A stretch of DNA of 64,000 bases, from positions 4,216,001 to 4,280,000 of the forward strand of contig NZ_CP066218.1 in NCBI RefSeq assembly GCF_016313185.1. The letters are read 5' to 3'. This DNA comes from Mycolicibacterium baixiangningiae (lineage in GTDB: Bacteria > Actinomycetota > Actinomycetes > Mycobacteriales > Mycobacteriaceae). Shown one piece after another: positions 2,864 to 12,119 of this stretch; position 1 is the first letter of the stretch, and each line of letters starts with the position of its first letter. The translations under genes and the position numbers were made by a program. Under the pieces are notes generated by a model. It was not told the origin of the DNA. It saw nothing but the letters and a program-made list of their open reading frames with translations, and searched no databases.

Positions 2864-2881
2864 AAAAGTAACGTCAGTTTT
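2864..2881. promoter_or_regulatory. candidate operator of the catabolic operon
   Basis: AAAAGTAACGTCAGTTTT is an 18-bp imperfect palindrome centred on ACGT (14 of 18 positions symmetric), in the AT-rich gap between divergent starts at 2775 and 2924. It is a plausible site for the TetR protein encoded inside the operon (7368-7985). The link is inferred from position only. Confidence 0.4.
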
Positions 2882-2923
2882 AGTTTGGCTCCGCTGGTCC
2901 ACCGCATGTCATTGGAGACTCCG

Positions 2924-4030
2924 ATGGAATCGTTCGTTCACCTGCGCAAAGGCAAAACGCCGCGGCGGCCGCACGCCGATCTCGACGGCCAGAAGGACGA
3001 CGAACTCGGTCGCGGAGGGTTCACCGGACGCACCGCGAACATGTACCGGCGCAACGACCCCACCGCTTTTCGCACCGTCGGACCGCTGCGCCCCCTCGAC
3101 GTCCTCGGCGATCAACTCAAACCCGGTGACGCCACGGACGCGAACGGCGCGCCGCTGCTGATGTTCTCGAATGCCGACTGTCAGGTGCTGCTGTCCCGGC
3201 GCACCGAGGAGATGCCCTACTTCGCCCGCTATGTCGACGGCGATCTACTGTCGTTCGTGCACACCGGTTCCGGGCTGTTCGAGACGGAGTTCGGACCGCT
3301 GCGTTACCGCGCGGGCGATTGGGTGTACATACCGAAGGCCTGCACCTTCCGGCAGATCCCTGACACCGAGTCCACGCTGCTGATGATCCAGTCCACCGAA
3401 GAGTTCCGCGTCCCGCCGCCCGGCCCGCTCGGCAGGCACTTCCCCTTCGACCCGACCCAGGCCGCGATCCCCGATCCGTTGCCCATCGATGACGGCACCG
3501 GCCCGCAGGTCGACGGCGAGTACGAGGTCAGGCTGTTCCATGAGGGTGGGCCGACATCGCTGTTCTACCAACATCATCCGCTCGACGTCGAAGGATGGCG
3601 CGGGGACAACTTCGCGTTCACCTTCAACATCAGCGACTACCACGTCATCACCTCCGACAGCGTGCATCTGCCGGCCACCGCGCATCTGTTCATGCAGGCC
3701 ACCGGGGTGTACGTGATGAACTTCCTACCGAAACCGGCCGAAGGCGTACCCGGCACCGAACGCACCCCCTGGTATCACCGCAATGTCGACTACGACGAGA
3801 TCGCGTTCTTCCACGGCGGCACGCTGTACGGCATTCCGATGCCGCCCGGGCTGATCTCCCACGCACCACAGGGGGTGCACCACGGCGCGCCGGAGAAGGC
3901 GCGAGAACGCGCCCGCCGCAAGTTCGACGAATTCACCCGGGTCGACTGGCAGGTCATCGCCGTCGACACCCGCAGACGGCTGATCCCCTCACCGGAAGTG
4001 CTCGCCAACGATCTGGGGCAGCATTCGTGA
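2924..4030 (+). CDS. hmgA: homogentisate 1,2-dioxygenase family ring-cleavage enzyme (short form)
   Basis: A non-heme Fe(II) dioxygenase of the homogentisate dioxygenase cupin family, which opens homogentisate to maleylacetoacetate. At 368 aa it is shorter than the 430-445 aa eukaryotic and proteobacterial enzymes. Probable iron ligands are H285 (WYHRN), E292 (YDEIAF) and H319 or H320 (VHHGAP); the His-to-Glu spacing is one residue longer than in the human enzyme. The ATG at 2924 (MESFVHLRKG) has GGAG just upstream; an ATG at 2906 is possible. First gene of an overlapping operon; no maleylacetoacetate isomerase or fumarylacetoacetase follows, so the substrate may be a homogentisate analogue. 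Confidence 0.85.
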   Translation: MESFVHLRKGKTPRRPHADLDGQKDDELGRGGFTGRTANMYRRNDPTAFRTVGPLRPLDVLGDQLKPGDATDANGAPLLMFSNADCQVLLSRRTEEMPYFARYVDGDLLSFVHTGSGLFETEFGPLRYRAGDWVYIPKACTFRQIPDTESTLLMIQSTEEFRVPPPGPLGRHFPFDPTQAAIPDPLPIDDGTGPQVDGEYEVRLFHEGGPTSLFYQHHPLDVEGWRGDNFAFTFNISDYHVITSDSVHLPATAHLFMQATGVYVMNFLPKPAEGVPGTERTPWYHRNVDYDEIAFFHGGTLYGIPMPPGLISHAPQGVHHGAPEKARERARRKFDEFTRVDWQVIAVDTRRRLIPSPEVLANDLGQHS

Positions 4031-5262
4031 CGACCGCCGTACGCCACGAATACGACCGCATCCCCTATCTCGTTGCCTACCAGAACACTTCAGGAGTGCG
4101 TGACGTTTACGGCGGCGTGGCCGAACTGGTCGTGCTGGAGAGCCACCTGCTGCGGCCGCGCGACAGACCCAGTGACACCGTGCTGATGTTCATGCACCCG
4201 ATCGGCGGCGGGGCCTACCTGCCGATGATGAACGCGCTGGCCAAGGCCGGCCACCATGTCATCTACTGCAACAGCCGATTCCGCGGCACCGATTCGGCGC
4301 TGCTGATGGAGAAGGTCGTCGAGGACCTCGGCGAGGCGATCAAGGACGCCAAGAACCGGCTGGGCTACGAGAAGGTGGTCCTCGCCGGTTGGAGCGGCGG
4401 TGGGTCGCTGTCGGTGTTCTACCAGCAGCAAGCTCAGCACCCGACCGTGACCGCGAGCCCGTCCGGCGACGGGCCCGATCTGACGACGCTGGGTTTGATC
4501 CCCGCCGACGGGATGATGCTGCTGGCCGCGCACATCAGCCGCCACGGCACGCTGACCGAATGGCTCGACGCCTCGATCCTCGACGAGTCCGATCCCAGCG
4601 ACCGCGACCCCGAACTCGACCTGTACAACCCGGACAACCCCCACCAACCGCCGTACACCGCCGAATTCCTCGAGCGATACCGGGCCGCCCAGATCGCGAG
4701 GAATCGGCGAATCACCGCGTGGGTCAAGGACAAACTGGCCGAACTGAGAACCAGCGGACTGCCCGGGGCGGATGTTGCAGAGTTCGCGTTCGTCGTGCAC
4801 GGCACCATGGCCGATCCCCGTTGGCTGGACCCGACCGTCGACCCCAACGACCGGGCGCCGGGCACCTGCTACCTCGGCGACCCGCGGGTGGTGAACATGA
4901 GCCCGGTGGGGTTGGCCCGGTTCTGCACGTTGCGCAGTTGGCTGTCTCAGTGGAGCTACGACGACGCCAACGGCGACGCGGTCAAGGCAGGCGCCGACGT
5001 CGCGGTGCCCGCGCTGGTGATCGGCAACCTCGCCGACGACGCGTGCACGCCCAGCCACACGCGCCGACTCTTCGAGGCGATCGGCCACCCCGACAAGGAG
5101 ATGCACGAGATCGCAGGGGCCAACCACTACTACTCCGGACCCGGCCAACGTGAGACGCTGCGGGAAGCGGTCGGGATCTGCACCGAGTGGCTGCACCGGC
5201 ACGGGTTCTCGACTCCGGAGGGCAGGAGCGAAGCGACCCGGGATTCGACGGAGGGTGTATGA
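4027..5262 (+). CDS. alpha/beta hydrolase in the dioxygenase operon
   Basis: 411 aa starting at the GTG that overlaps the dioxygenase stop (GTGA), which implies translational coupling. The nucleophile elbow is GWSGGG (S123); HPIGGG near residue 57 is the probable oxyanion loop. A late Asp (LADDACTPSH) and His (GANHYYSG) complete the triad. It probably hydrolyses an ester, lactone or C-C bond in the product of the preceding dioxygenase. Substrate unknown; the large insert between strands 5 and 6 (LDASILDESDPSDRDPELD onward) should form a lid. Confidence 0.85.
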   Translation: MTTAVRHEYDRIPYLVAYQNTSGVRDVYGGVAELVVLESHLLRPRDRPSDTVLMFMHPIGGGAYLPMMNALAKAGHHVIYCNSRFRGTDSALLMEKVVEDLGEAIKDAKNRLGYEKVVLAGWSGGGSLSVFYQQQAQHPTVTASPSGDGPDLTTLGLIPADGMMLLAAHISRHGTLTEWLDASILDESDPSDRDPELDLYNPDNPHQPPYTAEFLERYRAAQIARNRRITAWVKDKLAELRTSGLPGADVAEFAFVVHGTMADPRWLDPTVDPNDRAPGTCYLGDPRVVNMSPVGLARFCTLRSWLSQWSYDDANGDAVKAGADVAVPALVIGNLADDACTPSHTRRLFEAIGHPDKEMHEIAGANHYYSGPGQRETLREAVGICTEWLHRHGFSTPEGRSEATRDSTEGV

Positions 5263-6458
5263 CAGGCGCGCTGGACGGTATCCGGGTCATCGAGATCGGC
5301 ACGCTGATCTCCGGTCCCTTCGCTGGACGGTTGCTCGGCGACATGGGGGCCGAGGTGCTCAAGATCGAGCCGCCCGGAGTCCCCGATCCGCTGCGCACCT
5401 GGGGGCAGGCCGAACTCGACGGCCACCGTTTCTTCTGGACCGTGCACGCCCGCAACAAGAAAGCGATCACGCTGGATCTGCGCACCGAGCGCGGCCGGGA
5501 CATCTTCCTCGACCTCGTCGAGCAGACCGACGTCATCGTCGAGAACTTCCGGCCCGGCACGCTCGAGCGCTGGAATCTCGGCTACGACGTCCTGCACGCG
5601 CGGAACAAGGGCATCATCCTGGTGCGCGTGTCGGGGTACGGCCAGACCGGGCCCGACGCGCACCGCGCCGGGTACGCATCCGTCGCCGAAGCCGCCAGCG
5701 GCCTGCGTCACCTCAACGGCTTCCCGGGCGGTCCCCCGCCGCGCCTGGCGCTGTCGCTCGGCGACACCCTGGCCGGGATGTTCGCCACACAGGGTGCGCT
5801 CGCGGCGCTGTACCGGCGCACCGTCACAGGTGAGGGCCAGGTGGTCGACACCGCGCTCACCGAATCCTGCCTGGCCGTACAGGAATCCACGATCCCCGAC
5901 TATGACGTGGGCGGTGTCGTGCGGGGCCCGTCGGGCACCCGGCTCGAAGGCATCGCCCCGTCCAACATCTACCGCACCGCCGACGACAGCTGGGTGGTCA
6001 TCGCCGCCAACCAGGACACCGTCTTCCGCCGGTTGTGCGCCGCGATGGGACAACCCGAACTGGTGATCGACGACCGGTTCGCCGATCACCGTGCGCGCGG
6101 CCGCAATCAGGACGAACTGGACAAGATCATCGGGGACTGGGCGGCCGGGCGTCAGCCCGGCGACATCATCGAGACACTGTCAGCGGCCGGGGTCATCGCG
6201 GGCCCGATCAACACCGTCGCCGACGTCGTCGACGATCCCCAGCTGCGGGCGCGGGGCATGATCGCCGAGCACTGGGACGAACGCGTCGAACGCACGGTCA
6301 TGGGGCCCGGCATCGTGCCGGTGCTCTCGGAATCGCCGGGCAGCATCCGCAACGCGGGTCCGGCGTACCCGGGTCAGCACAACGACGAGGTGTACGCCGG
6401 GATTCTCGGCAAGACCGCCGACGAGCTGGCCGAGCTGCGCGCCGAGGGGGTGCTGTGA
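5259..6458 (+). CDS. class III (CaiB/BaiF) CoA-transferase
   Basis: 399 aa of the family III CoA-transferases, which move CoA from a donor thioester to a carboxylic acid through an aspartyl-CoA mixed anhydride. Family hallmarks seen are the N-terminus LDGIRVIEIGTLISGPFAGR, LGDMGAEVLKIEPP, ARNKKAITLDLRTERGR, VIVENFRPGTLERW and the C-terminal GPINTVADVVDDPQL. The ATG overlaps the hydrolase stop (ATGA). With the lyase that follows it resembles glutarate/HMG-type CoA-transferase plus HMG-CoA lyase pairs, suggesting it activates a free (hydroxy)dicarboxylic acid. Substrate not assignable from sequence. Confidence 0.92.
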   Translation: MTGALDGIRVIEIGTLISGPFAGRLLGDMGAEVLKIEPPGVPDPLRTWGQAELDGHRFFWTVHARNKKAITLDLRTERGRDIFLDLVEQTDVIVENFRPGTLERWNLGYDVLHARNKGIILVRVSGYGQTGPDAHRAGYASVAEAASGLRHLNGFPGGPPPRLALSLGDTLAGMFATQGALAALYRRTVTGEGQVVDTALTESCLAVQESTIPDYDVGGVVRGPSGTRLEGIAPSNIYRTADDSWVVIAANQDTVFRRLCAAMGQPELVIDDRFADHRARGRNQDELDKIIGDWAAGRQPGDIIETLSAAGVIAGPINTVADVVDDPQLRARGMIAEHWDERVERTVMGPGIVPVLSESPGSIRNAGPAYPGQHNDEVYAGILGKTADELAELRAEGVL

Positions 6459-7360
6459 GCGAACTGCCCGCCAAGGTCGACATCCGCGAGGTCTCGCTGC
6501 GCGACGGCCTCCAGATCGAACAGCCCATCCCTCTGTCGGCGAAGCTCGAATTGCTCGAAGCCGTCGTGGCGACCGGCGTCCGTGAGGTGGAGGCGACCGC
6601 ATTCGTCTCCCCGTCGAAAGTGCCTGCGCTGGCCGACGCCGCCGAACTGGCCGCGGAGCTGGCCCGGTTCGACGGCGTCGAGTTCTCGGCATTGGTGGCC
6701 AGCCCCAACGGCGCCAAGCGCGCCATCGCGGCCGGGCTGCGCTCGATCGAGTACGTGGTGTCGGCCGCCGACGGACACAGCCGGGCCAACGTCGGGCGGT
6801 CCTCCGCGGAGGCCGCCGCACAGATCCCCGACATCGCGGCCATCGCCCACGACAGCGGCGCCACCGTCGAAGTGATCATCGCAACCGCATGGGACTGCCC
6901 GTTCGACGGCCCGACACCGCCGGACCGCGTACTCGGGATCGTCGATGCCGCAGTGGGTTTCGGTGTCGACCGGGTCGCGATCGCCGACACCATCGGCACC
7001 GCGACTCCCCGACGGGTCGGCGATCTCGTCGCGCTGGTGCGCCCCCGCATCGACGGCGTGCCGCTCGGCGCCCACTTCCACAACACCCGCGGCGCGGGCC
7101 TGGCCAGCGCCTATGCGGCGGTGCAGAGCGGGGTCACACGGCTGGACGCGTCGGTGGGCGGGCTGGGCGGCTGTCCCTTCGCGCCGGGCGCCAGCGGCAA
7201 CATCGCCACCGAGGATCTCGTCTACCTGCTGCGCGACAGCGGGATCGACAGCGATGTCGACCTGCAGGCCGCGATCGGGGCCGCCCACGTCGCCCGCCGG
7301 GTCGTCGGCCACGACCTGCCCAGTGCGCTGCTGCGCGCCGGGGACCGGATCATCGGCTGA
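6455..7360 (+). CDS. hydroxymethylglutaryl-CoA lyase family enzyme
   Basis: 301-aa TIM-barrel lyase of the HMG-CoA lyase branch of the DRE-TIM superfamily. The catalytic set is complete: SLRDGLQ with R16, the metal-binding HFHNTRG motif, and GGLGGCPFAPGASGN carrying the active-site Cys. It cleaves 3-hydroxy-3-methylglutaryl-CoA to acetyl-CoA and acetoacetate, or a related hydroxyacyl-CoA. The GTG start overlaps the CoA-transferase stop (GTGA). Context (CoA-transferase upstream, acyl-CoA dehydrogenase and kinase downstream) suggests a terminal carbon-carbon cleavage step in one pathway. Confidence 0.9.
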   Translation: MSELPAKVDIREVSLRDGLQIEQPIPLSAKLELLEAVVATGVREVEATAFVSPSKVPALADAAELAAELARFDGVEFSALVASPNGAKRAIAAGLRSIEYVVSAADGHSRANVGRSSAEAAAQIPDIAAIAHDSGATVEVIIATAWDCPFDGPTPPDRVLGIVDAAVGFGVDRVAIADTIGTATPRRVGDLVALVRPRIDGVPLGAHFHNTRGAGLASAYAAVQSGVTRLDASVGGLGGCPFAPGASGNIATEDLVYLLRDSGIDSDVDLQAAIGAAHVARRVVGHDLPSALLRAGDRIIG

Positions 7361-7367
7361 GCGCGGT

Positions 7368-7985
7368 ATGGCCCCGGAGTCGTCGACGCTGAGCAGCAAG
7401 GGCCGCCAGACCCGCGATGCCATCGAGCAAGCGGCCCGAAAGCTGTTCGCCGAACGCGGCTTCCACGGGACCACGCTGGCCGACATCACCTCGGCGGCCG
7501 GACGATCGCCCGCGGTGTTCTACCGCTACTTCGACGACAAAGAGGATCTGCTGGCCGCGCTGGCGCAGTCATTCCTGCACGACGTCGTCGCCCCATCGGG
7601 ATCCGGTGTGCCCCTGCCGGCTTCGCCCGACGACGGCGAGTTCTTCACCACGGTGGTCACCGGTTACTGGAACATCTTCAAGCAGAACATCGGCATCATG
7701 ATCGCGGTCGCCCAGCTCGCGGCCGCCCAACAGCGCTTCGCCGACCTGCAGCACGAGTTCCGGCGGTTCGGCATGGACGTCATCGCTGCATCGATCCTTC
7801 ACGCGCAGGAGCAGGGTTACGGCGCCGACCTCAACGCGGAGTACACGGCGGCGGCGATCGCGCTGCTCTTCGAGAACTTCACCGTCGTCATGGTCGGCAA
7901 CTCGGGTCTCGGACTGCAGATGAGCGACGCCGACGCGATCGCCACGCTGTCGACCATCTGGAAGAAGACGCTGTACGGCTTCTGA
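7368..7985 (+). CDS. TetR family regulator inside the catabolic operon
   Basis: 205 aa. The N-terminal helix-turn-helix is typical (TRDAIEQAARKLFAERGF, TLADITSAAGRSPAVFYRYF) and is followed by an all-helical ligand domain. The ATG at 7368 is 7 bases after the lyase stop and the gene is co-directional with the operon, so it is probably an autoregulated local repressor sensing a pathway CoA ester (inference). The best nearby palindrome is at 2864-2881. Confidence 0.9.
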   Translation: MAPESSTLSSKGRQTRDAIEQAARKLFAERGFHGTTLADITSAAGRSPAVFYRYFDDKEDLLAALAQSFLHDVVAPSGSGVPLPASPDDGEFFTTVVTGYWNIFKQNIGIMIAVAQLAAAQQRFADLQHEFRRFGMDVIAASILHAQEQGYGADLNAEYTAAAIALLFENFTVVMVGNSGLGLQMSDADAIATLSTIWKKTLYGF

Positions 7986-8010
7986 CCGGACGACTCAAAG
8001 GAGAGTTCTC

Positions 8011-9249
8011 GTGGATTTCACCCTTCCGGACCACCTGCCCGGTGTGCTCGAGGAGATCGACGCGTTCATCGAGGCGGAGATCAAACCGCTCGAACGTGAG
8101 CACATGCAGTATTTCGACCGCCACCGCGAGTACGCCCGCACCGACTGGGAGAACGGCGGTATCCCGCAGCGCGCGTGGGAAGATCTGCTCGACGAGATGC
8201 GCAGGCGCGCCGATGCAGCCGGCTGGCTACGGTACGGGTTGCCGGCGCAGTTCGGTGGCCGCGACGGCTCCAACATCGACATGGCCGTCATCCGGGAGCA
8301 CCTGGCGCGCAAGGGACTCGGCCTGCACAACGACCTGCAGGACGAGTCGTCGATCGTCGGCAACTTCCCGCAGGTGATCATGATGGACCGGTTCGGCACC
8401 GAAGCGCAGAAGACCGAATGGATCGAGGCCATGCTCACCGGCGAGCGGTCGATGGCCTTCGGGCTCACCGAACCCGACCACGGTTCGGACGCGACGTGGC
8501 TGGAGACCCGCGCCGAACGCGACGGTGACGGCTGGGTCATCAACGGCACGAAGCGGTGGAACACCGGCGTGCACCGCGCCACCCACGACCTGATCTTCGC
8601 CCGCACCTCCGGCGACCAGGGGCAGGCCCGCGGCATCACCGCATTCGTGGTGCCCACCGACACACCGGGTTTCGAGGTGCCGTACTACTGGTGGACGTTC
8701 AACATGCCCACCGACCACGGCGAGGTGGTGCTCACCGACGTCCGGGTGCCCGACGACGCCATCCTCGGCGAGGTCGACCGCGGCCTCGAGGTGGGCCAGA
8801 CCTTCCTGCACGAGAACAGGATCCGGCAGGCCGCCAGCAGCCTGGGCGCCGCGCAGTACTGCATCGACCGCGCGGTCGGCTACGCCGGACAGCGCATGGT
8901 GTTCGGGAAGCCGTTGGCGGTCAACCAGGCCGTGCAGTGGCCGCTGGTCGAGCTGCAGACCGAGGCGCAGATGGTGCGCCTGCTGGTCTACTACGCCGCC
9001 ACCGAGCTGGACCGCAGCCACCACATGGAGGTCTCCGACAAGGTGTCGATGGCGAACTACCGCGCCAACCGCCTGGTGTGCGAGGCCGCCGACCGGGCGA
9101 TGCAGGTGCACGGCGGCGTCGGCTACAGCCGCCACGAACCGTTCGAACACATCTACCGCCACCACCGGCGCTACCGCATCACCGAGGGAGCCGAGGAGAT
9201 CCAGATCCGCCGGGTCGCGCAACGGCTGTTCGGATTCGGCCGCACGTGA
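8011..9249 (+). CDS. acyl-CoA dehydrogenase (ACAD10/11- or LvaC-like context)
   Basis: 412-aa FAD enzyme with the standard acyl-CoA dehydrogenase signatures: AFGLTEPDHGSDATW, a beta domain with WVINGTKRWNTG, and the C-terminal QVHGGVGYSRHEPFEHIYR plus ITEGAEEIQIRRVAQRLFG. AAAGGAG lies 7 bases before the GTG start at 8011. It overlaps the next gene (APH-type kinase) by GTGA. In ACAD10/11 and the Pseudomonas lva system, a dehydrogenase of this kind acts on 4-phosphorylated acyl-CoA, eliminating phosphate; the same role is proposed here from gene order. Confidence 0.92.
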   Translation: MDFTLPDHLPGVLEEIDAFIEAEIKPLEREHMQYFDRHREYARTDWENGGIPQRAWEDLLDEMRRRADAAGWLRYGLPAQFGGRDGSNIDMAVIREHLARKGLGLHNDLQDESSIVGNFPQVIMMDRFGTEAQKTEWIEAMLTGERSMAFGLTEPDHGSDATWLETRAERDGDGWVINGTKRWNTGVHRATHDLIFARTSGDQGQARGITAFVVPTDTPGFEVPYYWWTFNMPTDHGEVVLTDVRVPDDAILGEVDRGLEVGQTFLHENRIRQAASSLGAAQYCIDRAVGYAGQRMVFGKPLAVNQAVQWPLVELQTEAQMVRLLVYYAATELDRSHHMEVSDKVSMANYRANRLVCEAADRAMQVHGGVGYSRHEPFEHIYRHHRRYRITEGAEEIQIRRVAQRLFGFGRT

Positions 9250-10205
9250 AAGCAGAACTCGAGGCGGTGCTGCGTCCGCTGCTCGGTGACGTGACCGTCG
9301 AGAACCTCACCACGCTGACCGGTGGCGCGAGCCGGACGACGTGGGCTTTCGACGCCGTCACCGCCGACGCGACGAGCAAGCTGATCCTGCGCACCGGCCC
9401 GCCCGACGAGGTGCACGCCGGGATGGAACTCGAGGCGCGGGCACAACAGCGCGCGGCCGAGGCGGGCGCGCCCGTCCCCCACATCCTGACCGCCGACAAC
9501 GACCCTGCGGCACTGGGCAATCCGTATCTGATCTGCGGGGCGATCGGCGGTGAGACGATCGTCCGCCGGATCTACCGCTCGCTCGACGACGCCGGACGGG
9601 CCCGGTTGCTGACCCAGTGTGCCGCAGCGCTGGCGGCTGTTCACCGCGCCGATCCGCGCGGTATCGGGCTTGCCCAAACCGACCAGCTGGCCGGGTGGCG
9701 TGAACGCCTCGACGAGATAGGCGACACCACAGCCACTTTCGAGTGGGCGTTCCGCCGGCTGGCAGCTCATCGACCGCCGCCGTCAGCGCACCGGCTGGTG
9801 CACGGCGACTTCCGCATGGGCAACCTGATCGTCGACGACAAAGGGCTCGCGGCAGTCCTCGACTGGGAGCTCGTGCACGTCGGCGAGATCTACGAGGACC
9901 TCGCGTGGTTCTGCATCAGGGCGTGGCGGTTCGGCGCCTCGGGGGCGCTCGGTGCCGGTGGGCTGGGCAGTGTCGAGGACTTCCTCACCGCCTACGAGAC
10001 GGCCAGCGGGGAGGCACTCGACCGATCGGCGTTCCGCTGGTGGCTGACGGTCGCGACGCTGCAGTGGGGGGTCATCTGCCGGTACCAGGCCGAGCGCCAC
10101 CTCAGCGGCCAGACCCCGTCGGTCGAACTGGCCGCGATCGGACGGCGCGTCTGTGAGACCGAATGGGATCTGCTCGATCTGCTCGAGGGCAGCGGGCCAC
10201 GATGA
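9246..10205 (+). CDS. APH-type phosphotransferase (hydroxyacyl-CoA kinase candidate)
   Basis: 319 aa of the aminoglycoside phosphotransferase/choline kinase fold. The Brenner motif HGDFRMGN and metal-binding DWEL (AAVLDWELVHVGEIYEDLAW) are intact; the N-lobe contains LTGGASRTTWAF. Starts at the GTG overlapping the dehydrogenase stop and ends overlapping the DUF6285 start. Between an acyl-CoA dehydrogenase and a small partner protein, the likeliest role is phosphorylation of a 4-hydroxyacyl-CoA, as by LvaA or the kinase domain of ACAD10/11, rather than antibiotic resistance. Not proven from sequence. Confidence 0.88.
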   Translation: MKAELEAVLRPLLGDVTVENLTTLTGGASRTTWAFDAVTADATSKLILRTGPPDEVHAGMELEARAQQRAAEAGAPVPHILTADNDPAALGNPYLICGAIGGETIVRRIYRSLDDAGRARLLTQCAAALAAVHRADPRGIGLAQTDQLAGWRERLDEIGDTTATFEWAFRRLAAHRPPPSAHRLVHGDFRMGNLIVDDKGLAAVLDWELVHVGEIYEDLAWFCIRAWRFGASGALGAGGLGSVEDFLTAYETASGEALDRSAFRWWLTVATLQWGVICRYQAERHLSGQTPSVELAAIGRRVCETEWDLLDLLEGSGPR

Positions 10206-10552
10206 CCGGGCCTCCGTGGCTGTACGGCAGGCCGACCGCGGCCGAACTCGTCGCGGCGGTCGCCGACTTCCTCGACAACGAGGTGCGCGCCGCCACGGAC
10301 GGAAGTGTGAGCTTCCACGCCCGGGTGGCCGCGAATGTGCTGCGCACCGTCGAACGCGAACTCACCGACGCGTCCGCCGCCGAGGCGGTCGGTGCGCTGA
10401 CCGAACTCGGGTTCCCCGACGAGGCACACCTGGCGGCGGCCATCCGCGCCGGTGAGCTCGACGCCCGCGAACCCGAGGTGCTGACGACGCTGCGCGCCGT
10501 GGTCCGCCACCGGCTGGCAGTGGCACATCCGGGCTACGACCGGGCCGACTGA
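10202..10552 (+). CDS. DUF6285-like small protein, kinase partner candidate
   Basis: 116-aa soluble, mostly helical protein (PTAAELVAAVADFLDNEV, FHARVAANVLRTVERE, AAAIRAGELDAREPEV, VVRHRLAVAHPGY). It matches my memory of DUF6285 proteins encoded beside APH-type kinases and acyl-CoA dehydrogenases. The ATG overlaps the kinase stop (ATGA), so the two are probably made together. The Pseudomonas lva operon also has a small protein (LvaB) needed by its kinase; equating the two is an inference. Last gene of the operon, converging on a methyltransferase. Confidence 0.8.
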   Translation: MTGPPWLYGRPTAAELVAAVADFLDNEVRAATDGSVSFHARVAANVLRTVERELTDASAAEAVGALTELGFPDEAHLAAAIRAGELDAREPEVLTTLRAVVRHRLAVAHPGYDRAD

Positions 10553-11717: not shown

Positions 11718-12119
11718 ATGGCAGCACCGCCCCGATCGCTGCGGATCCTGGTCTACAGCGACAACCCGCAGACGCGGGAGGCAGTGCAATTGGCGCTGGG
11801 CAGGCGGGTTCACCCCGAGTTGCCCGAGTTGAGCTACCTCGACGTGGCTACCGCGCCGATGGTGATCAAACAGCTCGACGCAGGCGGTTTCGACCTGGCC
11901 ATCCTGGACGGCGAAGCCACCCCGGCGGGCGGTATCGGTCTGGCCAAGCAGATCAAGGACGAGATTGCCGATTCTCCGCCGATCCTGGTGCTGACCGGCC
12001 GGGCGGACGACGCCTGGCTGGCCTCCTGGTCGCGCGCGGAAGCGGCCGTACCGCACCCGATCGACCCCATCCGCCTCGGTGACGCGGTCGTATCGTTGCT
12101 GCGGCTGTCCGTGCAGTAG
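11718..12119 (+). CDS. orphan receiver-like protein, Rv3143 type
   Basis: 133 aa with a CheY-like alpha/beta outline (RILVYSDNPQTREAV, GFDLAILDGEATPAGG, PPILVLTGRADDAWLASW, HPIDPIRLGDAVVSLL) and no output domain. D64 is at the phosphorylation position, but the usual acidic pair is reduced to S14-D15 and the conserved Lys before Pro is replaced (VPHPID), so classical phosphotransfer is doubtful. It sits just upstream of nuoA, the same place as Rv3143 in M. tuberculosis. A role linked to complex I is conjecture. Confidence 0.8.
   Translation: MAAPPRSLRILVYSDNPQTREAVQLALGRRVHPELPELSYLDVATAPMVIKQLDAGGFDLAILDGEATPAGGIGLAKQIKDEIADSPPILVLTGRADDAWLASWSRAEAAVPHPIDPIRLGDAVVSLLRLSVQ

Follow-up and report, generated by a model that had tools for sequence, protein, structure and literature searches.

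We have identified, at positions 2924-10552 of a 64,000-nucleotide stretch of the Mycolicibacterium baixiangningiae genome (contig NZ_CP066218.1; the whole stretch is hereafter called the window), a set of eight genes whose order is conserved far above chance and which probably forms a single co-regulated unit. The genes encode a cupin dioxygenase of the homogentisate dioxygenase (HGD) clade, an alpha/beta hydrolase, a CoA-transferase, an HMG-CoA-lyase-type enzyme, a TetR-family regulator, an acyl-CoA dehydrogenase, an APH-type kinase and a DUF6285 protein. We give even odds to the reading that they constitute one undescribed, TetR-controlled catabolic regulon of mycobacteria, composed of three modules and directed at a hydroquinone-type substrate. 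No description of the cluster was found in the titles and opening abstract lines listed from open-licence PubMed Central (PMC) papers, and none of these papers mentions DUF6285. Most sampled species of a much-studied genus carry the set. If the reading is correct, the locus would contribute a further ring-cleavage route, a second kind of phosphorylative hydroxyacyl-CoA processing next to that of LvaABC and ACAD10/11, and a natural switch made of a TetR and a presumed 22-bp site. Natural strains with partial sets would also make the order of the steps testable.

In the proposed pathway an upper part, for ring cleavage and hydrolysis, would feed a lower part, for CoA transfer, lyase, dehydrogenase and kinase reactions, under one TetR. 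In module 1, the Fe(II) dioxygenase would cleave a para-diphenol ring of the hydroquinone or gentisate type, probably other than homogentisate, and the serine hydrolase would split the resulting diketo acid. In module 2, the CoA-transferase would place CoA on a released carboxylate and the HMG-CoA-lyase-type enzyme would cleave a tertiary 3-hydroxyacyl-CoA to yield acetyl-CoA. In module 3, the APH kinase with the DUF6285 protein would phosphorylate a hydroxyacyl-CoA, and a dehydrogenase outside the LvaC subfamily would complete its entry into beta-oxidation. We infer the reactions, their order and the substrate alike.

Conservation of the gene set

A preliminary description of this DNA had placed eight co-directional genes here, and its coordinates, strand and gene content were right; it named only seven of them, the eighth being tetR. 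Neighbouring genes share 4 bp at five of the seven junctions, the other two junctions, on either side of tetR, are gaps of 7 and 25 bp, and none of the eight genes contains an internal stop. All eight occur in order in 16/16 same-genus loci, which had been chosen for holding the dioxygenase, and, at 45% identity or more, in 65 of the best 80 loci from a dioxygenase-alignment scan of named genomes. The co-conservation of the whole set that had been anticipated was thus borne out. Among the same 80 loci, three (L099, L135, L150) hold the first four to six genes before the sequence ends, one (L128) lacks tetR, and nine hold only the dioxygenase and hydrolase, adjacent in eight and 6.5 kb apart in L082. 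L087 has an adjacent dioxygenase-hydrolase pair with the dioxygenase at 44% identity, and L083 the dioxygenase alone. Jongsikchunia kroppenstedtii (L149) carries all eight genes, and no nuo match was found within the 21 kb fetched around them.

Genus-wide counts were obtained by manual comparison of two match tables, in which four genomes (G709, G717, G734, G738) were identified by their presence in the dehydrogenase table only. The dioxygenase occurs in 174 of 198 genus genomes, or in 170 when four weak matches are left out (G323, G630, G662, G704; best E 1e-97 to 1e-119, a range shared with the M. avium plasmid-type paralogue or partial copies). The dioxygenase and dehydrogenase tend to occur together: both were found in 172 genomes, neither in 9, the dehydrogenase only in 15 and the dioxygenase only in 2; without the weak matches these counts become 168, 9, 19 and 2. 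One of the two dioxygenase-only genomes is a 70% complete draft.

An operator-like site shared by both halves of a split operon

A conserved palindrome was found by aligning the regions 5' of the dioxygenase gene in 20 distinct full-operon sequences, including that of the window (the alignment displays 21 sequences, of which L160 repeats L035, and L104 deviates). With five duplicate loci removed, 76 of the 80 distinct loci have a match to a relaxed pattern in the 200 bp preceding the dioxygenase gene. The pattern was written after the 20 aligned sequences had been viewed, and its independent test is provided by the other loci and by three second sites described below. Three of the loci it misses (L103, L104, L124) keep tetR and show a near match by eye; the fourth (L128) has neither tetR nor the site. 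The site at 2865-2886 is the only match in the 64-kb window, just three further matches occur in 1.58 Mb of locus sequence, and the reversed locus sequences gave none.

All three further matches lie in loci L043, L045 and L046 and begin 47-48 bp before the likely tetR start. In these loci the lyase gene and tetR are parted by two genes (assigned by eye), one S4-domain-like and the other, on the opposite strand, methyltransferase-like. The detached half, comprising tetR and the dehydrogenase, kinase and DUF6285 genes, therefore carries a site of its own, the strongest indication that the two halves respond to one signal. Less firm is the link between tetR and the site. Four of five loci without tetR also lack the site: L186 and L217 have lost the leader as well, and in L128 and L214 the leader is present with no match. 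The TetR protein presumably binds the site, and the eight genes are probably co-regulated.

Gene loss and separation of the modules

The principal alternative is that two unrelated catabolic units share a locus and a regulator: a ring-cleavage pair, and a hydroxy-dicarboxylate unit (CoA-transferase, lyase, dehydrogenase, kinase and DUF6285) that serves other acids. We regard this as an unlikely account, though one to be taken seriously. It draws on species that keep one unit without the other, on units housed in different genomes outside the family, and on a Variovorax plasmid (L070) that carries a hydrolase-CaiB-HMGL trio with no annotated HGD-like gene within the 21 kb shown. It is opposed by the same operator-like site on both halves of the split operon and by co-conservation in the dioxygenase-holding mycobacterial loci.

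In six of the 15 dehydrogenase-only genomes the dehydrogenase is more distant (E about 1e-178 to 1e-182); contexts were read for six of the remaining nine (G082, G621, G315, G709, G656 and G626, the last ending at a contig edge). In the five informative loci the losses form a nested series that starts at the 5' side; in G709, for example, the dioxygenase is gone and a shortened hydrolase lies beside a PPE-like gene. This nested loss from the upper end fits an upper part that feeds a lower part, and could also reflect deletion geometry. The locus of G621 (L214) is collinear with L116 to about the sixth dioxygenase codon and resumes at the CoA-transferase start, so that the former leader stands in front of the CoA-transferase; tetR is missing through a second gap. 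Both L214 (at ~12949) and L215 (~7541-8976) have lost the dioxygenase and hydrolase; their break points differ, and in each the CoA-transferase gene is preceded by remnants of the dioxygenase start.

Several observations weigh against the one-regulon pathway. Three genomes (G621, G315, G656) lack the dioxygenase, hydrolase and tetR and keep the CoA-transferase, lyase, dehydrogenase, kinase and DUF6285 genes, and a fourth (G082) retains only the dehydrogenase, kinase and DUF6285. DUF6285 is missing from 5/5 genomes of other lineages that hold a dioxygenase of the clade (four of family f14, one of genus g23). Among seven distant genomes with the dehydrogenase, four have no dioxygenase match and three have one at 27-36% identity, which the tree does not include. 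The site persists without tetR in L215; the reverse is seen in L216, which has tetR but a replaced leader and no site. The split in L043, L045 and L046 is probably one event, because the insertion is shared. Finally, the hydrolase appears esterase-like: its model (mean pLDDT 85.3) gave 50 listed fold matches, mostly esterases and lipases, so that C-C bond cleavage is proposed from gene order.

Modules 2 and 3 must also serve some purpose independent of module 1, because several species keep them without it; the simplest account is that the lower part also serves other hydroxy acids alone. Genes are scattered elsewhere as well. G031 has its dioxygenase, hydrolase and CoA-transferase genes on one contig and its dehydrogenase, APH and DUF6285 genes on another, and a distance of 187 kb separates DUF6285 from the dioxygenase in G139. 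Of the single pathway proposed in the preliminary description, shared regulation of both halves is supported; against an indivisible pathway, parts are missing in some species and lie apart in other lineages.

Enzymes of the proposed lower part

A second alternative, put forward in the preliminary description, holds that ring opening is followed by LvaABC-like 4-phosphorylation and phosphate elimination and then by aldol cleavage. It rested on a likeness of the dehydrogenase to LvaC and ACAD10/11. The published account gives an HCMR motif, Arg626 and a catalytic Asp753 as marks of ACAD10/11 and LvaC (PMC12440821). Positions were mapped through two LvaC-type comparison proteins, LvaC and ACAD11 themselves lying outside the alignment: the Thermus thermophilus dehydrogenase encoded beside an APH-DUF6285 pair (L072), and a second protein of the window's own genome (L079) found by the HCMR pattern. 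R626, H634, R637 and D753 of mouse ACAD11, as numbered in PMC12440821, correspond to F, Q, S and E in the window dehydrogenase, whose HCMR position reads QAAS. Both comparison proteins carry the Arg, the HCMR motif and the Asp; the motif is present in L079 by construction, so only its Arg and Asp are independent, and the Thermus protein serves as the independent control.

LvaC membership was rejected by this residue test (F, QAAS and E against Arg, HCMR and Asp), and the claimed likeness fails: the dehydrogenase belongs to another subfamily. Its signature, ENRIRQAASSLGA with RYRITEG, is common to 15/15 members aligned, down to 61% identity, and is missing from both comparison proteins. Given the replacement of the key residues, 4-phosphate elimination by the window dehydrogenase is not supported. 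An invariant Arg272 beside the signature motif could bind phosphate in place of the LvaC residues.

In an alignment of the kinase to the ACAD11 kinase domain (8v3v, E 5.5e-6) the catalytic motifs HGDFRMGN ... DWE are intact, and the window's copy of DUF6285 is the only one found in its genome. An APH gene adjoins DUF6285 in 21 of 22 distinct DUF6285 loci, the exception scoring under the family cut-off. Seven of these loci have a window-type dehydrogenase within 1.5 kb, and three (L170, L180, L184) have one of LvaC-like type; the kinase pair thus partners two or more dehydrogenase types. The window-type subfamily was found in 13 of 296 phylum genomes (E<=1e-100), a count that may be a lower bound since at most six candidates per genome were scored in the first pass. 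DUF6285 occurs in 13/13 of these genomes, compared with 21/198 in the DUF6285 sample; the first figure overstates independence, because only three families (f1, f67, f52) are represented. In five of the 13 (G360, G365, G415, G435, G475) the dehydrogenase and DUF6285 are far apart or on separate contigs.

The intact kinase motifs of the APH-DUF6285 pair and the Thermus thermophilus pair beside a dehydrogenase with HCMR and Asp speak for LvaABC-like chemistry. With the four residue equivalents lost, and no LvaE-like ligase or LvaD-like keto-acid reductase among the eight genes by Pfam, we consider this route improbable.

Two loci with LvaC-type dehydrogenases were noted in passing. In L072 (Thermus thermophilus HB8 pTT27, 4844-7971) the genes for an LvaC-type dehydrogenase, APH kinase, DUF6285 and a histidine phosphatase lie in a row; by gene content this is an LvaABC-like unit occurring in nature, supplemented by a phosphatase gene. 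The genome of the window likewise encodes an LvaC/ACAD10/11-type dehydrogenase with HCMR and Asp (L079, 7142-8395; C1, ~157 kb), and a haloacid-dehalogenase-like gene (by eye) lies a few kb away.

For the CoA-transferase the closest NCBIfam model is that of succinate-glutarate CoA-transferase (SUGCT; NF052585), at 244.5 of 750 bits and thus below the equivalog cut-off. The lyase passes the HMG-CoA lyase subfamily cut-off (NF004283, 280.8 against 246 bits), which implies a tertiary 3-hydroxyacyl-CoA. On the Variovorax sp. PBL-E5 plasmid 3 (L070, 4505-13325) a hydrolase of the family, a CaiB and an HMG-CoA lyase gene are accompanied by genes for an enoyl-CoA hydratase, a FadD3-type ligase and two acyl-CoA dehydrogenases.

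Proposed ring cleavage

The preliminary description had held that the dioxygenase differs from the ordinary homogentisate enzyme and that the usual partners are absent; the first is probably correct and the second holds as far as it was tested. The window dioxygenase has the HGD fold; its AF2 model is of moderate quality (mean pLDDT 74.3). An alignment matches a predicted two-His-one-Glu iron site, H285, E292 and H320, at positions that we take to be the Fe ligands of HGD. Its His-to-Glu spacing is one residue longer than in long HGDs, as it is in other short HGDs. It scores only 37.1 of the 510.75 bits of the HGD equivalog TIGR01015, a cut-off that accepted short HGDs such as that of Vibrio may or may not reach, and it falls in a clade apart from the HGDs (0.99). 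The equivalent of P. putida HGD His361, presumably near the substrate, is A, D, S or V in 13/13 clade members read and is kept in 8/8 readable distinct other short HGDs. Databases label window-type dioxygenases homogentisate 1,2-dioxygenase, a name made doubtful by this evidence.

HgmA_C (PF04209) had no match in the window's genome, with one of 14 control genomes positive. Fumarylacetoacetase (TIGR01266) had none there either, a weakly controlled negative, as none of the 14 controls rose above the cut-off and five matched below it. 4-Hydroxyphenylpyruvate dioxygenase (HPPD; TIGR01263) was over the cut-off in none of 41 genus genomes, the window's included. Weaker, mostly partial matches occur in all 41, and three genomes other than the window's match near-full length at ~100 of 277 bits. 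For maleylacetoacetate isomerase, the other usual partner, no search was made. Ordinary homogentisate catabolism was accordingly rejected as a candidate, the partner enzymes not having been found and the clade being separate. That the operon serves ordinary homogentisate (tyrosine) catabolism with its missing enzymes encoded elsewhere is very improbable: the HGD-like fold and Fe ligands, the sub-cut-off HPPD-like matches and the weak fumarylacetoacetase control leave it some room, and the clade, the His361 replacement and the searches just given count against it.

The dioxygenase-hydrolase pair is the most widespread core of the gene set, and the Ser-Asp-His set of the hydrolase is invariant in 11 sequences. 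The two genes adjoin in Pseudonocardia (2), a Rhodococcus metagenome-assembled genome (MAG), Streptomyces, Actinocorallia, Nocardioides and Gordonia and, outside the actinobacteria, in one Myxococcota MAG and one Deltaproteobacteria MAG. A KstD/ChcC-like (ring-aromatising) flavoprotein is encoded near the pair in Pseudonocardia (L084) and in the Rhodococcus MAG (L086), an OYE-type flavoenzyme also in L084, and an HpaB-type (phenol-hydroxylating) protein with two acyl-CoA dehydrogenases in G139 (L048). Genes of these kinds near the pair are consistent with formation of a phenol or hydroquinone ahead of ring cleavage.

Paralogues of the pair (dioxygenase 47%, hydrolase 53%) lie ~40 kb apart on M. 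avium plasmid pP7a (NZ_CP076857.1; L059, L065), amid P450, ferredoxin, aldehyde dehydrogenase, CoA-ligase and CaiB genes. Relatives of these two plasmid genes lie about 9-10 kb apart in family f14 (L049, L050, L052). The annotated neighbours of hydrolase relatives on plasmids gave no hint of substrate.

Candidate substrate

A kinase in the set implies a hydroxyacyl-CoA not directly accessible to beta-oxidation; together with the tertiary 3-hydroxyacyl-CoA implied by the lyase, this suggests an isoprenoid-like chain with methyl branches, and a hydroquinone ring is suggested by the HGD fold. By this chemical logic a prenylated hydroquinone is the boldest candidate. In full, in an undescribed aerobic pathway, a new HGD-like class would open an alkyl- or prenyl-hydroquinone, and the released tertiary hydroxy-dicarboxylate would be CoA-activated, phosphorylated by the APH-DUF6285 pair, processed by the new-subfamily dehydrogenase and cut by the HMG-CoA-lyase-type enzyme, all under one TetR. 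We offer this specific version tentatively and think it doubtful as it stands. For example, the ring could be a head group of the tocopherol or plastoquinone type, with a hydroxylated, methyl-branched acyl chain attached; nothing relevant to a tocopherol- or prenylquinone-type substrate was found among the open-licence PMC papers listed.

Features and surroundings of the locus

The window's genome is a single contig of 6.18 Mb, and where the best matches of its dioxygenase come from named records, these are Mycobacterium and Mycolicibacterium. A fadB4-like gene lies upstream of the operon, and the two genes just outside the window on that side are presumably fadE24 and fadE23 in Mycobacterium nomenclature. 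Downstream are a SnoaL-like gene and then open reading frames (ORFs) read as nuoA, nuoB and further nuo genes. A short response-regulator-like ORF (by eye) at 11718-12119 lies directly upstream of nuoA. In four reduced loci, L186, L214, L216 and L217, a second MDR-type gene (zinc alcohol dehydrogenase-like, by eye; ~323-332 aa) follows fadB4; the window has no such gene at that place. A promoter consensus scan gave one promoter-like site against 0.3 expected, located inside the first gene, and a terminator scan gave three terminator-like sites against 2.7 expected.

Table 1. Genes of the operon and the upstream site, in window coordinates.
Feature	Position	Strand	Basis
HGD-clade cupin dioxygenase (HgmA_N family), 368 aa	2924..4030	+	Pfam; predicted Fe ligands H285, E292, H320
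Serine alpha/beta hydrolase, 411 aa	4027..5262	+	Pfam; predicted triad S123, D337, H367
Class III (CaiB-type) CoA-transferase, 399 aa	5259..6458	+	PF02515, 398 bits
HMG-CoA-lyase-type lyase (HMGL-like), 301 aa	6455..7360	+	NF004283, 280.8 bits
TetR-family regulator, 205 aa	7368..7985	+	PF00440, 62 bits
Acyl-CoA dehydrogenase, distinct subfamily (ENRIRQAASSLGA), with Glu at the catalytic position	8011..9249	+	PF00441/02770/02771
APH-type small-molecule kinase, 319 aa, HGDxxxxN and DWE motifs	9246..10205	+	PF01636, 118 bits
DUF6285 protein, 116 aa	10202..10552	+	PF19802, 88 bits
Operator-like palindrome AAAGTAACGTCAGTTTTAGTTT in the promoter region, putative target of the operon's TetR	2865..2886	.	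Conservation

Comparison with known systems

Like LvaABC of P. putida and ACAD10/ACAD11, the set combines an APH kinase with an acyl-CoA dehydrogenase, here in one operon, and APH-DUF6285 pairs accompany LvaC-type dehydrogenases in other bacteria. It departs from them in a dehydrogenase of another subfamily, with Glu and without HCMR, in being joined to ring cleavage, a CoA-transferase and a lyase, and in having no ligase or keto-acid reductase. SUGCT-type CoA-transferases and HMG-CoA lyase carry out dicarboxylate activation and retro-Claisen cleavage. The window likewise places a CaiB-type transferase beside an HMG-CoA lyase that scores above its cut-off, whereas its transferase is far under the equivalog cut-off and both are operonic with ring cleavage. 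With HGD the window dioxygenase shares the cupin fold and the predicted H-E-H ligand positions and, if our reading holds, action on a para-diphenol. It differs in its separate clade (0.99), its score far under the TIGR01015 cut-off and the loss of the His361 equivalent; HPPD and fumarylacetoacetase were not found in the genome, and its partner is an alpha/beta hydrolase and not fumarylacetoacetase. Extradiol dioxygenases paired with C-C hydrolases, such as HsaC and HsaD of steroid catabolism, offer the remaining parallel. There too a ring-cleaving dioxygenase gene is followed by an alpha/beta hydrolase gene, and KstD-like and acyl-CoA genes lie near the pair studied here in some lineages, whereas the window dioxygenase is of the HGD type and the best fold matches of its hydrolase are esterases and lipases.

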